Shown one piece after another: positions 1,743 to 9,960 of a stretch of DNA of 64,000 bases (position 1 is its first letter; each line of letters starts with the position of its first letter). Under the pieces are notes generated by a model that saw only the letters and a list, made by a program, of their open reading frames with translations, did no database searches and was not told the DNA's origin. The DNA is from Ectocarpus siliculosus (taxonomy: Eukaryota; Sar; Phaeophyceae; Ectocarpales; Ectocarpaceae), in NCBI GenBank assembly GCA_000310025.1, contig FN648450.1, positions 137,621 through 201,620 on the forward strand. Direction: 5' to 3'. Made by a program: the position numbers and the translations under genes.

Positions 1743-2095
1743 ACTAAGTTAGTTGTTTGCCAGACAACTACCGGCTAGTTGTTCGTAAACACCTAGGTGC
1801 GCGCGCTCCTGGAAGAGTAGTCATCTACAGCCAACTAGGTGCGCACCCTCCTGGAAGAGTAGGTGTCTGCAGCCAACTAGGTGCGCACGCTCCTGAAAGA
1901 AGAGTAGGTGTCTGCAGGCAAGTAGGTGCGCACCCTCCTGAAAGAGTAGGTGTCTGCAGGCAACTAGGTGCGCACCCTCCTGGAAGAGTAGGTGTCTGCA
2001 GCCAACTAGCTAGGTGCGCACCCTCCTAGAAGAGTAGGTGTCTGCAGGCAGTAGGTGCGCACACTCCTGGAAGAGTAGGTGTCTGCAGCAAACTA
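1743..2095. repeat. 42-bp minisatellite array 1, left part
   Basis: About seven imperfect units of 42 bp with the core AACTAGGTGCGCACCCTCCT followed by GGAAGAGTAGGTGTCTGCAGCC. The array is preceded by a near-palindrome, TAGTTGTTTGCCAGACAACT. Because 42 is divisible by three, open frames run through it, but these are repeat artefacts. The array is cut at the TA of 2094-2095 by the pogo element and resumes at 6326. Confidence 0.9.
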
Positions 2096-2120
2096 CCGTA
2101 GGTTGCATAAGATATCACAC
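2096..2120 (+). repeat. Left terminal inverted repeat of pogo element
   Basis: Starts CCGTAGGTTGCATAAGATA and differs from the reverse complement of 6301-6325 at one of 25 positions. A TA target duplication is immediately outside. Confidence 0.88.
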
Positions 2121-2339
2121 TTTCATTAGATACCACACCCCCTCAGAAAACGTACACAATACCACACCCGTGTGCTATTTTTTTTAGCCCCCCAAAAAAC
2201 GTTAATTGTATCACACGGTGACATAAGATACCACACCCCCTGAAGTTGGGCCGCATTAAATCGACGGAGCCCCTGCTTGTCACACGGTGTGACAACGTGA
2301 GGACAGAGATCACGACCACACCACCTGCTCGCAAGAGCC

Positions 2340-5300
2340 ATGAAGGCGGACAATGTCGTGGAGGGTGGTGCAGTTAGCAACCCTGCTGAAAGCCCCGCGG
2401 CTCAGACTGCAGTGGGTAAGACTCCGGCGGCGGCCCCACGCTCCATAGCGTCCTTCTTTCCACCCGCCCCGGGGGAACGTGGGGCTGCTCGGACGACTCC
2501 CTCAGCAGCCGCACATGACACCGCACGTACTGCTGAGGCCCGCTCAATAGAATCTACTGCTACTGAGACTCCCACAGCACCGGCTGCGCCTGCCACCGCG
2601 GGTGCCGCTGAAACCTGCGAAGCAGAACCTCTTGCTGAGAATCCCGCAGCACCCACACCCACACCCGAAAAGGCAGCTCTCCCGCCAACCACCAACACCC
2701 TGAGCGCGGCTACTGCTGAGAACCCTGCAGCAGCACCGCGCTGCGGAGAACCATCGTGCACCAACAAGCCCTTGTGGGCAGAGCCAGGGAAGGATATGCC
2801 GGAGTTTTGCGGCAGGCATGCGAAGTCTGGCGACGTCTACATCAAAATAAGGTGTGCGCAGAGCGTCTTGCAGTTTGCAGCACATGGGTGTTTGTGAGGA
2901 TTCTCATGGCTCAAGCAAACCAACGAACTTGCCACGCCTGATTGCCTGATCGATAACCAGATCGAAAAAATAGTGTGATTTTGACGTCGTGTCGTCGCGC
3001 TCGCCTCACTGTACATTGGCATGTACACACTACATTTACATGTAGTTCATATATTCTGGTGTGGCGAAATGTTTACTGGATTGTTTTTTTCACACACACG
3101 ACACGTTTCCGCATACCGTTTTTTGTGTTTGTGATGTTTCGGTAGGAAGACTGCGAAACCCGTACCCAACACGTGCAAATATGTAAACATAACCTCGACA
3201 GCAGTTCGTGCCTGTTTGTGTGAGATACGAAATAGGTGCCGTCAGCTGCTCACCCTCTGTACCTTGCAAGCGTGGACGCCATGACTCTCAACCTGGTGGC
3301 CGTTGTCAGAGCTATCCGCTAGCCATCGTATTTTTGGTACGTTTGCCTGATGGTCGTTGGAGCGAGCGCATTGTTACAGATACTGCACTTAACGACACGT
3401 ATGCTACATGTTTTGTTGCTTCCTCGAACTCATGCGCTTTTCAGGAACGTGCACCTGCCTGAAGCACCGACGACAGCAGCCGCAGCGGCGCCCGTCGGCG
3501 ACGCCATGTTTCCTGGAGAGTCAGAGGAGTGGACAGATGGTTTCGGTGGGCGTCTCGACGGCACGCCGGCCGAGGGCAAGGGCAAGGGCAAGAGGAAAAG
3601 AGAGCCGCTGGAACTGGAGCCACCAAACTTCCCCATTAAGTTTGGTGGTGGCCAGAAACGCAAGCGGTACGATTTGGAATTCAAAGTAAACGCCATTAAG
3701 TACGCGACCATGCAAAGCCCGGGGGCGCAGGGGCCTGGTGGAACCATCGGTGTGTCGTATGCGCAACGAGTGCTTGGGATTCCGGAGAAGATCACACTCT
3801 CTGCGTGGATAAAAGACAGAACAAAGTACGAGAAGCAGCTGGAACAGGCAGACCAGCTCGGGGCCAAACGCAAGAAAAAAGCCCGGAGCGTGAAGTCGTT
3901 CAACACGGGGAGGGTTAGGTCAAACGCTGAGGCCGAGCTCGAACTTCTCGACTGGATCAACGATGTTCGTTCGGAAGCCATCTCTGCCCGCGTCTCTACA
4001 AGGATGATCAAGAACAAGGCGGTATCGCTCAACTCGCTTTGGTTCGGCCCGAGGCCTGCAGCGAACGACCTGGAGGGCAGTAGAAAGTACCGCAACAAGC
4101 AGACTCACTGGTGCAGGAGGTTCCTTAGGAAGAACCGGTTGTCATTCCGGGCGGTTACCAGGCAAGGCCAGAAACTCCCTTCCGGGTGGCCTGCGATTGC
4201 CATGAAAGCCGTCAAGGAATGGAGGGCGCTTCGTCACGGAGGAATCGACGGTGGGGGAGGACGGAGCATGGGGGGGGCAACGAGCAGTGCGCCTTCGAAG
4301 CCACCTCTGTTGTTCAAGGAGGAGCAGAGCTACAGCATGGATGAAACTGCTGTGTGGATGGAGCCCGCTGGCACGTCGACCGTGGCGGTGAGTTCAATAG
4401 TGTTTCTTCGAGTCATGTGCCTGTCTGGTCGTTTCTTGGCATTCCGTGCAAACAGTGGGCATTGTGATGCAACATTTCTTGCCGTACCTACTCAGTGTCC
4501 AGCCAGTAAGGCACGACGTTGGTATTGTGCTTATGCCGGGTTAGAAGTTTCTTACCATTCGCATCCATCATCGCTGTACTGCAAAACCCATACGTTACTT
4601 TGTGCGTGAAGAGCTGTCATTCTCATCTACAAAATCAACTTTGTTCGTCGCCTCTGCTTTCTCTATTGCTTTTTGCTTTTTATTTTTGTCGTTCGCAGCA
4701 CACCGGTCAGAAAGAGGTGGCCATCAAAACCGGTGGAAAGGAAAAGTTGCGGATCACTGCCGTGCTTGCAGCAAACATGAAGGGCGGCAAACTCCCGCCG
4801 CTGCTCATCTTCAAGGGTAAGCCTACGGCGCCGGGCAAAACCCCCGCTGCCAACAGCATCGAACGAGAGTTCAAGGTGGGCAAGGACAAGAAGGGGATAG
4901 TATACCCTCAGAGCGCTGTGTACGCCGTGGACGACAAGGGGTGGCACACGCAGCGCGTCTTCAGGGATGTTTGGCTCCCCCAAGTGTGGAACCGGCGCCC
5001 GGGTCGCGAGGGGGTCCTGGGCAACTACCGTCAGCCGGACACGCTGCTATCGTGGGACGATTACACCGTGCACAAGACAGCCCTGTGCAAGGAAGCGATG
5101 GACAAGTCCAACACGACGCTGTTTTTTGTCCCCGGAGGCCTAACGCCCAAGATCCAGCCTTGCGATGGACTTATCAACAAGCTGTTCAACTCCAACATGT
5201 CCAGGCTCTACGATGACCACATGGCCTCCACCGACGCCGTGCGCAACGACCGCGGCTACCCGGATCCCCCATCGAGGGGATTGCTCGCGCAGTGGGTGAA

Positions 5301-5634
5301 GAAAGCGTGGGATGAAGTGGACCCTGAGAGCATCCGTTCGAGCTGGAAGAAGGCTGGCACGACCGTTGCCTTCGATGGATCTGAGGACGAGGCGTGGGCC
5401 AACAAGGAGCTCAACTCCGACGCCCAAGGGAAACCACTTCGTGCAGACGGCGACGCGGCCGCTGCCGGCGTGGAGGAGGCTGGCCCATCGGAGGAGGGGG
5501 AGACGATGGCCGACTTGTTGGAGGTGTTGGAAATCGACGACGATGACAGCTCGGGAGATGGCGAAGGCAACGATGACTCGGAGGTTGAGGTCATGGCAGA
5601 CTTGCCGGGGGCGGACGTTGTTTGCATAGACTGA
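2340..5634 (+). CDS. Pogo-like transposase with N-terminal EsV-1-7 motif (3 exons, 796 aa)
   Basis: Predicted exons are 2340-2851, 3445-4387 and 4699-5634, with GT-AG introns of 593 and 311 bp. Phases match at both joins (phase 2, then phase 0). Residues 1-130 are Ala/Pro/Thr-rich with PRSIASFF at 33-40. Residues 135-171 form one EsV-1-7-type motif (C135, C140, C157, H160). A basic stretch near 220 is followed by a psq-like HTH (about 241-310) and a CENP-B-like helical region containing a WCRRFLRKN segment. The DDE_1 nuclease core has candidate acidic residues D470 (MDETAVWM), D605/D606 (WDDYTVHK) and D641 (TPKIQPCD), a DD34/35D arrangement. The C-terminus is strongly acidic. The protein should cut and join its own terminal repeats at TA sites in the nucleus. 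All three catalytic positions are present, so it may be functional. The start codon is the first ATG of the open exon; an upstream exon cannot be excluded. Confidence 0.82.
2742..2851 (+). other. EsV-1-7-type cysteine motif within transposase exon 1
   Basis: Spacing is C-x4-C-x16-C-x2-H followed by about ten residues ending in DVYIK. This matches the published EsV-1-7 repeat, known from the phaeovirus EsV-1 and from brown algal proteins such as IMMEDIATE UPRIGHT. The codons end at the splice donor AG|GTGTGC, so the motif closes exactly at the exon edge. Its presence is the main taxonomic clue in the window. Confidence 0.75.
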
Positions 5635-6325
5635 GGTGTCTTGTCTGGTATCTACCTACCGTAGTTGGATGCCATGGTCAAGTCAACCAAAGCTGCTATT
5701 CGAGCCAATTTGTCCTGGGTTTCATATGTTTCGGTAGTCGCTTGTCCTCTTGGTTTCTAGCTTTGGTTGATATGTAGCTGGCACTTGCTTGCGTCCTATG
5801 TGGTTCCAGCTTGAGTGTTGGATGCAAGTCTTGCAAGTGGTTGCGTCGTCCAGGTACCTGTATGCTGTCGTTTTGTCGCACACAACACCGGCACAACCGC
5901 TATGAGGTATCGGTTCTACGTCTTCGTTGTGTACCTGTGCGAAGAATTTCCAAAGGATACTGCGAAAATGCACGTGGGAAAGCATGTACGTGATGGAGTG
6001 GTGTGAGCCATCCTAACTATCACACCTGTTTTACACCCCTTGACGCCCTTTGTACGTGGGTGCCTCCTGTAAGCGCACCGCATCACTCGAGCGACATTAT
6101 TATCACCCCCCCGTAGGTAGGGTCCTGTGAGCGCGTATCATCACACGGGCGAAGTTATCACACCCCCTTGTTATCACACCCCCTGTTGGTGAGACTCTGT
6201 GAGTACACTTTATCACACGGGTGACATAAGATATCACACCCCCTACAGAATACCACACCCGTGTGATAACTTTCGTCCTCCCGAAAACGTTATCACACGG
6301 GTGTGGTATCTTATGCAACCTACGG
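5635..6325. other. 3' untranslated and subterminal region of the pogo element
   Basis: No gene. From about 6015 it holds repeated TTATCACAC and GATACCACACCC motifs in both orientations, mirrored by similar motifs at 2107-2310. It ends in the right inverted repeat (6301-6325). Confidence 0.7.
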
Positions 6326-6377
6326 TAGGTGCGGACCCTCCTAGAAGAGTAGGTGTCTTCAGCCAACTAGGTGCCCG
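6326..6377. repeat. Minisatellite array 1, right remnant
   Basis: The 42-bp unit resumes with TAGGTGCGGACCCTCC immediately after the pogo element and ends after about one and a quarter units. Confidence 0.85.
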
Positions 6378-7317: not shown

Positions 7318-7885
7318 CAGCTAAGTTAGTTGTTAGACAGACAACCACCGGCTAGATGTTCGTAAACACTTAGGCGCGCGCGATTCTGGAATAGTAGTCA
7401 TCTACAGCCAACTAGGTGCGCACAAATCTGAACCAGTAGGTGTCTGCAGCCAACTAGGTGCGCACGCCCCTGAAAGAGTAGTCATCTACAGCCAACTAGG
7501 TGCGCACCCTCCTGGAAGAGTAGGTGTCTGCAGCCAACTAGGTGCGCGCGCTCCTGGAAGAGTAGTCATCTACAGCCAACTAGGTGCGCACCCTCCTGGA
7601 AGAGTAGGTGTCTGCAGGCAACTAGGTGCGCACGCTCCTGAAAGAGTAGTTATCTACAGCCAACTAGGTGCGCACACTCCTGGAAGAGTAGGTGTCTGCA
7701 GCCAACTAGGTGCGCACCCTCCTGGAAGAGTAGGTGTCTGCAGTCAACTAGGTGCGCACACTCCTGGAAGAGTAGGTGTCTGCAGGCAACTAGGTGCGCA
7801 CAAATCTGAAAGAGTAGGTGTCTGCAGCCAACTAGGTGCGCACCCTCCTGGAAGAGTAGTTGTCTGGCAAACAACTACCACGGGC
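7318..7885. repeat. 42-bp minisatellite array 2, bounded by an inverted repeat
   Basis: About twelve units of the same 42-bp family as array 1. The left edge has TTAGTTGTTAGACAGACAAC and the right edge GTAGTTGTCTGGCAAACAAC; these are inverted relative to one another. The array therefore resembles a small inverted-repeat element filled with tandem units. Confidence 0.88.
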
Positions 7886-7965: not shown

Positions 7966-8943
7966 GGATCCGGACAACCCTAGAGTCACCGTGTCAATGT
8001 CTTGCCGGCTGATACAAGTACTGTACATGGCGGGAGCTCGTCAAGCGTGCATAAAAAAACAAACAGACAGGGGTGGTTTGGAGGGCACGGAGAAAACATG
8101 GTTTGTGTCTCCGAACGGCAAAAAGTCGGCTGCTTGAGAGGAGAGGTGAGTACAAAACTATCCAGCTCTCGTCCTCTAGACCATCGATTCATGTTTTGTT
8201 TTCTTGGGTGTCTTCTCCATCAACGGCTCTCATCCGGGTGTGCGTGGTTCAGCAGTGGACGTACTCAACAGGCAGGGAGGCGCGTCGCTGTGAACTCGAT
8301 GTGTTGAAAAAGTCTTTTTTGGGACGGAGGAACAAGCACTCCATATTCGAGTGAAAAAATAGACCGAAAAAAACGTTGTGTCCACAACTTTGCGCGCACA
8401 ACGATGTACCTCCCTGCCGGCTGCGCGCTGCCACTGCCAACCCACGCACAACAACCGGATGAGAGTCGTTGATGACGAAGGCACCCAAGAAGACAAAACA
8501 TGAATCAATGGTCTAGAGGACGAGAGCTGGATAGTTTTGTACTCACGTGTCCTCTCAAGCGGCCGACTTTTTGCCGTTGGGAAGCGCTGACGCACGTTTT
8601 GGTCTCTTTTTGACACCGAGAGCATTTTTTCTCGCACGCCCGGAGCGCTATCGCCAAATATTGGGGGGCACAGCATCAGCTCAGCTGTGGGGAGCTCTTT
8701 GCGAGCTCGTTACATTCAGTTTCCATGACGCATTTGTGGTTTGTTTGTCACATATCGTTTGGTAGCAGTAGAAGACCACGATTCCCGCCGCACGTGCGAT
8801 GCATTTCGAGAAAACCACACGATAAAGATTTGTGTGCCCATAAAAACGGTACTCAAATGTTTCTCTGGCAGATATTCGCGCGCAAATGTTTGACAACATT
8901 TTAAGATTTTTTTCAAAGATTTGGCGACCATAAACATGGGTCT
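7966..8943. repeat. Foldback-like repeat block, copy 2
   Basis: Matches 1-904 plus 1536-1606 almost continuously. Its inverted-repeat arms lie at about 8111-8345 and 8360-8581. It lacks the LINE tail found in copy 1, so it provides the empty target site. Sequence homology stops near 8943, where a LINE reverse transcriptase fragment begins. Confidence 0.8.
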
Positions 8944-8945
8944 CA

Positions 8946-9960
8946 CACACTTTATTGAGCAACGCCCAAACACCCGCGGGTGCGCATGGACGGCGGAGAA
9001 CTATCGGACTGGTTCTTCGTCACACAGGGCGCGCGACAAGGATGTGTGCTATGTATCCCCACTGCTGTTCAACATCTTCTTCGCCGAGGTCCTCGAGGTC
9101 GTCGTTATCCGATTCAGCGAGGATGATGTTGTTCTGCGGAACCTGGTGTGCTTGGAGGAGGGGAAGACGGAAGCGGGGGGGGGGGAGGAGACGCCCCTTG
9201 ACCGAGTACGGAGGGCAGTATGGGGGATGCTGTATGCCGATGATGCCGGCGTCGTATCGAGGTCTGCAGAAGGACTGGCGAGAATGATGACCATCATTGA
9301 TGAGCTGTTCGGAGAGTTCGGGCTAACGGTGTCGGAGAAGAAGACGGAGACGCTCCTGATGCGCGCGAAGGACAAGTCGACTACAAGATCACAGCCCCCC
9401 CCGCCTCCGCCTCCACCGCTGACCATCGAAGCCGCGGGACATAAATACGCCCAGACGACCGAGTTCCGGTACCTCGGTGGCCTCGTCAACGAACATGGCG
9501 ACCTCACCCGGGAGATCAACTACAGGAGCAGAGGAGCATGGGCGTGCCTCAGGCGATGTGGCCAGGAACTCTTCGACAGACCGAGAGCGTCATTCCGACT
9601 CAAGATCCGCCTCTTCCAGACGGAGGCGATGGAGGCACTGCTGTACGGCTGCATGACATGGTCACCACTCAGCGGCCACTATCAGACATTGCGGTCGACA
9701 CACCACCGACTGCTCCTTCGAGTTATCGGGTACAAGCGCAAGAAAGACACCTCCAGGCAGCTCTCTTACGCCCAGACGCTGAAGAAGATCGAATGCCAGA
9801 CTTTGAAGCCACGATCCGACAACGACGCCTACTGTTCGCGGGAGCACTGGCAAGGCAGCCGGACGGGCGACTCCCGAAACGACTGATGCTCGGCGAGCTG
9901 GCGGGGGGGGAGAAGCCACGTAGAGGGGGACAGGAACAGAACTGCACAGGTGGCCGGTGG
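8946..9960 (+). pseudogene. LINE reverse transcriptase fragment, frame-disrupted
   Basis: The fragment begins within the reverse transcriptase domain: a GARQGCV-like motif lies in one frame near 9027-9050, and SPLLFNIFFAEVLE follows in the next frame, so one base-level disruption separates them. YADDAGVVSRS marks the catalytic centre (about 9232-9264), followed by a thumb region with FRYLGGLV and LLYGCMTW. Near 9795 the C-terminal part switches frame again to IRQRRLLFAGALARQPDGRL and LPKRLMLGEL. This order is typical of RTE/CFDP2-like and related clades. The endonuclease and 5' half are missing. A proline run is encoded by a CCN tract near 9397-9420. It is a 5'-truncated, inactive copy abutting the foldback block. 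Confidence 0.75.

Follow-up and report, generated by a model that had tools for sequence, protein, structure and literature searches.

An EsV-1-7 motif encoded ahead of a pogo-like transposase moves along with its transposon in a brown algal genome

The small, cysteine-rich EsV-1-7 motif is familiar chiefly from brown algae and the viruses that infect them. A motif of this kind lies ahead of a transposase in the 64-kb stretch of DNA analysed here (the window), and the locus raises the question of whether the two belong to one mobile gene, where the motif came from and what it may contribute. We identified in the window a pogo-like DNA transposon (Tc1-mariner superfamily) of 4,230 bp, whose single gene runs from an ATG at 2340 to a stop that ends at 5634 and is predicted to encode 796 amino acids in three exons. 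The features of the element are as follows; a slash marks a splice point.

2096..6325, + strand: pogo-like (Tc1-mariner superfamily) DNA transposon, with exact inverted ends, flanking TA and copies elsewhere
2094..2095, no strand: left target-site duplication TA; TA also left of the element in 15/15 other copies
6326..6327, no strand: right target-site duplication TA; TA also right of the element in 13/15 other copies
2096..2120, + strand: left terminal inverted repeat, from an inverted-repeat search
6301..6325, - strand: right terminal inverted repeat, from an inverted-repeat search
2340..2851, + strand: exon 1, Ala/Pro-rich arm and EsV-1-7 motif; donor AAG/GTGTGC
2436..2459, + strand: PCNA-box-like peptide (residues 33-40) that lacks the usual Gln; the sister family and P0009-P0012 have related peptides
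2742..2843, + strand: EsV-1-7 cysteine-rich motif (residues 135-168); Pfam PF19114 match
2852..3444, + strand: intron 1 (predicted); splice sites common to 20/21 aligned rows
3445..4387, + strand: exon 2, with the helix-turn-helix region and D470, presumed to be the first catalytic Asp; acceptor TTTTCAG/G; HTH_Tnp_Tc5 18.3 bits
4388..4698, + strand: intron 2 (predicted); GT...AG, frame open once joined
4699..5634, + strand: exon 3, DDE_1 domain (D605 or D606, and D641), then an acidic tail up to the stop; DDE_1 E 1.5e-18

Exon 1 matched the Pfam profile PF19114 (EsV_1_7_cys) with 35.6 bits and an E value of 8.2e-9, above the curated gathering score of 25. The match covered profile positions 1-34 of 35, with the four ligands at the set spacing, C-x4-C-x16-C-x2-H. 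The match to this spacing at 2742 was the sole one in the six frames of the 64-kb window, and when residues were shuffled 200 times within 500-residue blocks, matches averaged 0.16 and never exceeded 2. The profile match and the shuffles led us to reject a chance match. An earlier note on this DNA had read exon 1 as encoding a single motif with exact EsV-1-7 spacing, and the profile search bore this out. Through its C-C-C-H residues, the motif may fold round zinc. A fold model made from the single sequence had a mean pLDDT of 51, too poor to use, and a PDB search with a host EsV-1-7 repeat protein (P0028) turned up no related sequence at E values of up to 1.

Splicing was predicted from consensus and reading frame. 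Exons 1 and 2 join in phase 2, and after splicing the frame runs open through all 796 codons; the earlier claim that a phase-2 donor of exon 1 fits a phase-2 acceptor of exon 2 was correct in coordinates and phases.

In pogo, Tigger and CENP-B transposases, a helix-turn-helix region stands ahead of a DDE_1 core. The window protein shows this order with a putative helix-turn-helix region. DDE_1 matched exon 3 with 67.4 bits (cut-off 22), and D470, D605 or D606, and D641 supply the three acidic residues of a pogo or Tc1-mariner DDE_1 core, the second and third being 34 or 35 residues apart as in those transposases. The HTH_Tnp_Tc5 match to exon 2 was weak and under its cut-off of 22.2; four of eight relatives also matched, with 15.0 to 21.5 bits, all under the same cut-off, and P0019 carries a precomputed CENP-B/Tc5-type helix-turn-helix domain. 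The helix-turn-helix region would bind the terminal repeats and the DDE_1 core would cut and join DNA. The element also shares the TA target with pogo, Tigger and CENP-B transposases, and differs from them in the EsV-1-7 exon added in front and in a candidate PCNA-box-like peptide near the N-terminus.

The inverted ends of the element (CCGTAGGTTGCATAAG) match each other exactly over 16 nt (2096-2111 and 6310-6325) and are bordered by TA, and the left and right terminal inverted repeats (TIRs) form an inverted pair of 28 nt, 96% complementary, when TA and one further base are counted in. The window copy has both the TIRs and the TA target-site duplication that characterize pogo and Tc1-mariner elements. 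No further occurrence of CCGTAGGTTGCATAAG was detected in the 64-kb window with up to 2 mismatches allowed. The insertion site is an array of 42-bp repeats, and by eye the flanks, minus the element and one TA, make up one unit of the surrounding tandem repeat.

Two such 42-bp arrays, with the unit TAGGTGCGCACCCTCCTGGAAGAGTAGGTGTCTGCAGCCAAC, occur at 1744-2095 and 7321-7877, and within them lies a perfect 22-nt inverted pair (1750-1771 and 7856-7877). The arrays are flanked by a 0.9-kb stretch duplicated at 93% identity (1-904 and 7966-8875), and each copy has a long inverted repeat within it (133-604; 8110-8582). Just past the second copy is a 330-aa open frame (8894-9886) that looks reverse transcriptase-like by eye (YADD). 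Perhaps the pogo copy sits within a larger DNA element that has the 42-bp repeats in subterminal position.

We searched the genome (189,456,909 bases, 492 contigs) with exon 1, which returned at least 52 matches (366 candidates, best 150 scored). Twelve of them, the window copy included, contained the entire exon 1 (171 residues) at 95-100% identity, and one of the twelve (L008) had a stop. The four presumed zinc ligands were intact in 11 of these 12 copies, L011 being without the motif His. Both ends were fetched for 15 further copies. The left TIR was present ahead of exon 1 in all 15 (14 exact), the right TIR in 14 and TA on both sides in 13; copy C27 contained an additional G ahead of the right TA, and the right end of C457 was not found within the fetched stretch. 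The left flanks of the 15 copies were all different. Two copies, C33 and C93 (L068 and L070), had a common right flank and different left flanks, a pattern that may reflect recombination or an assembly error. When the window was aligned with 20 loci (L002-L020 and L022, the latter the same copy as L015), the donor and the acceptor were unaltered in 20 of the 21 rows, the exception being the deleted copy L018. Damage was also found in L013-L017, L019 and L020, which were shifted or rearranged in exon 1. These results show that exon 1 moves along with the element, and the earlier placement of this exon (2340-2851) within the transposon boundaries (2096-6325) was right. Two of the conditions that the earlier note had named as refuting its reading, a missing profile match and the lack of exon 1 in all other copies, do not hold.

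Shortened derivatives were also found. L018, L021, L024, L026 and L027 retained roughly the first 680-690 nt together with the terminal portion of the element, and were cut inside the motif; L026 had a break within its retained 5' part, and L023 was of the same type and more rearranged. Both ends were kept in L018, L024 and L027, with TA on either side, and in L021, without TA. These derivatives look like non-autonomous elements. In the 5' part, L018 was 91% identical to the window copy and L021, L024, L026 and L027 were 82-87% identical, indicating that most of the derivatives are old. The left breakpoint inside the EsV-1-7 motif was nearly identical across the five.

The earlier note had stated that no transposase with this motif was known to have been described. 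The fusion is already known, however: Dinatale et al. reported in 2025 an autonomous Mariner-Tc1 element of Ectocarpus sp. 7, TcMar-2_Ec32, whose transposase has an N-terminal EsV-1-7 domain (PMC12477816). Judged by its published description, the window element is very probably TcMar-2_Ec32 or a close family. Both are Mariner-Tc1 elements of about 4 kb from a brown alga with an N-terminal EsV-1-7 domain, and both are autonomous, the window element by inference from its open frame. They differ in length, 4.4 kb in print versus 4.23 kb here, and the genome searched here comprises 189.5 Mb versus the 200.2-Mb assembly behind TcMar-2_Ec32 (PMC12477816). The same report describes a 217-bp MITE, TcMar-N1_Ec32, which relies on TcMar-2_Ec32, and Gypsy families of Ectocarpus with a chromodomain or a Tudor domain (PMC12477816). 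The Gypsy families are likewise mobile elements that gained extra reader-type domains in the same alga, but they are retrotransposons and their domains are known chromatin readers. Overall, we are highly confident that the locus is a recently active, motif-bearing pogo-type transposon that moves by cut and paste in an Ectocarpus-like brown alga, and that it very probably represents TcMar-2_Ec32 or one of its close relatives.

To place the transposase among its relatives, we compared it with database proteins. The first search returned 8 proteins, the exon 1 search 4 and the profile search 20, six of which were already among the earlier ones. The closest named proteins were from Ectocarpus sp. 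CCAP 1310/34 (seven of the eight of the first search), and a fragment, P0020, was 98% identical to the transposase across 40% of the protein. Relatives of a sister family include a protein labelled Undpi1, a label that presumably stands for Undaria. PF19114 was absent from the 12 database proteins scanned and from the annotated rows, a weak negative since exon 1 is a separate frame that gene models may miss, and the transposase alignment gave no confirmed relative in genome contigs. In the EukProt gene model P0008, a Noc2 domain is joined to a sister-family DDE_1 domain, which is probably a gene-model error or an insertion.

The sister family comprises loci L061-L065, whose DDE exon shares 67-69% identity with that of the window element. 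A search that allowed 14 to 18 in the middle spacing found the EsV-1-7 motif in none of the five loci; an N-terminal reading frame (METPNNMNVQ...APQQITSFFGRA) was found in four of them and not in L065. Upstream of the transposase at three more distant loci, stretches of 2.2 to 3.7 kb also contained no motif. In a midpoint-rooted tree of 21 protein rows, which the window entered with exon 2 alone and in which P0023 forms a long branch, the window fell into a group of 8 rows (support 100/100) together with P0001, P0020, P0021 and P0023-P0026, separate from 13 sister-type rows; rows known only as proteins carry no motif state. The simplest reading is that the motif was gained in the window lineage after its split from the sister family, and its loss in the sister family is a possible alternative.

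Near the N-terminus, in an arm otherwise scarcely alignable between the families, lies a short SFF peptide. It reads PRSIASFF in the window, P0009 and P0010, PRSITSFF in P0012, LRSIASFF in P0011, PQQITSFF in the sister family and PKEITSFF in P0004, and is similar to the PCNA box Qxx[ILM]xxF[FY] with the Gln absent. PRPTSPFF in L066 and PQQIASCF in P0006 are poorer fits. Judged from these letters, the peptide may have a PCNA-box-like function.

Does exon 1 belong to the transposase at all? That it is part of a separate host gene, or falsely joined, would be compatible with a splice prediction that rests on consensus and frame, but exon 1 follows the left TIR in all 15 other copies, 14 of which also have the right TIR, the donor is common to other copies, and TcMar-2_Ec32 also has an N-terminal EsV-1-7 domain (PMC12477816); we regard such an arrangement as extremely improbable. 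An origin of the exon in another gene was rejected on the basis of the shared donor and the TIR linkage. The earlier note had further suggested that mobile copies spread the EsV-1-7 family between algae and their viruses. The motif is indeed mobile within the genome, and EsV-1-7 genes have a patchy distribution with possible horizontal transfer, according to a review (PMC7457493). EsV-1-7 motifs abound in the genome, in line with its brown algal origin: at least 150 matches exceeded the PF19114 cut-off (880 candidates, best 150 scored), and none was found in 14 control genomes. However, when the transposon motif was compared with 131 distinct host motifs from the 30 highest-scoring loci, a sample with some overlapping loci that leans to typical motifs, its best identity was 17/34, under the value of any sampled host motif, each of which has a host neighbour of at least 20. 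The TIR end was detected at none of the 30 host EsV-1-7 loci with up to 2 mismatches, and nine host loci inspected contained 3 to 16 motifs per reading frame, whereas the transposon has one. Neither the transposase alignment nor host EsV-1-7 proteins picked up a confirmed relative in scans of viral contigs, a weak result since these scans recovered no EsV-1-7 gene either. The suggestion thus found no support, and a role of the transposon as vehicle of EsV-1-7 motifs between algae and phaeoviruses is very improbable.

The remaining question is whether the motif does anything for the element. Among the 12 recent copies (L008 with its stop counted), pN/pS was 1.00 in the arm, 1.05 in the motif and 0.79 in exon 2 (to 4345). 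Across 19 copies, with frame-shifted ones counted, the values were 1.13 in the arm, 0.86 in exon 2 and 0.33 in the motif, the last resting on 4 synonymous and 5 nonsynonymous variants and not relied on. No constraint is visible on the motif of the recent copies and little on the transposase, and the copies are too alike for such a test. A third lineage, L066 (C43:269982), has a diverged exon 1 with a related motif and donor, and no transposase exon was found in the ~5.6 kb fetched downstream. Its DNA is 80% identical to the window across 143 nt spanning the motif and the donor, and the rest of exon 1 is alignable only in short pieces of 35 and 53 columns. Over 38 codons, the pair differs by 11 synonymous and 18 nonsynonymous changes (dN/dS 0.37, Fisher p 0.039, one pair), and the L066 motif has lost its second Cys, a presumed zinc ligand.

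The motif might therefore be a passenger, captured once from a host EsV-1-7 gene and retained without function. The neutral pN/pS of the recent copies would fit, as would the loss of a ligand in L066, a sister family that manages without the motif, and deletion derivatives cut inside the motif in several places and presumably mobilised in trans. Against this, no part of exon 1 is well preserved over a greater length between two diverged lineages than the motif and donor, with the dN/dS given above, and exon 2 is nearly as neutral as the motif among recent copies too similar to reveal constraint. We consider a passenger possible, though on balance unlikely. The element moves as one unit into TA sites, and in the mechanism we propose the motif would be an added zinc-folded module that makes contact with DNA, with chromatin or with a host protein, and which the lineage may have acquired after its divergence from the sister family. 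Contact with protein or chromatin is somewhat likelier than added end recognition, because there is only one motif and the motif-less sister family kept the rest. A more specific version, in which the motif, gained after the split, acts with the neighbouring SFF peptide as a targeting module and tethers the transposase to the replication clamp or to host chromatin, is doubtful and offered tentatively. If it is true, the element would be a natural one-motif construct for probing EsV-1-7 domain function.

IMMEDIATE UPRIGHT (IMM) was reportedly presented as an EsV-1-7 domain protein by Macaisne et al. in 2017. This description of IMM recurs in later work (PMC7457493, PMC12993054, PMC12629598), and EsV-1-7 domains are expanded in brown algae and tied to development through IMM (PMC7457493, PMC12993054). 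The transposon motif resembles those of proteins such as IMM in its C-x4-C-x16-C-x2-H spacing and in exceeding the Pfam cut-off, and differs from the host proteins as a single diverged motif. To the published statement on TcMar-2_Ec32, our analysis adds the exon structure, the mobility of exon 1 in many copies, the conserved SFF peptide and the finding that the sister family lacks the motif; these are additions of detail and not of kind. The single-motif transposase and its sister family without the motif together provide a clean comparison for EsV-1-7 function.
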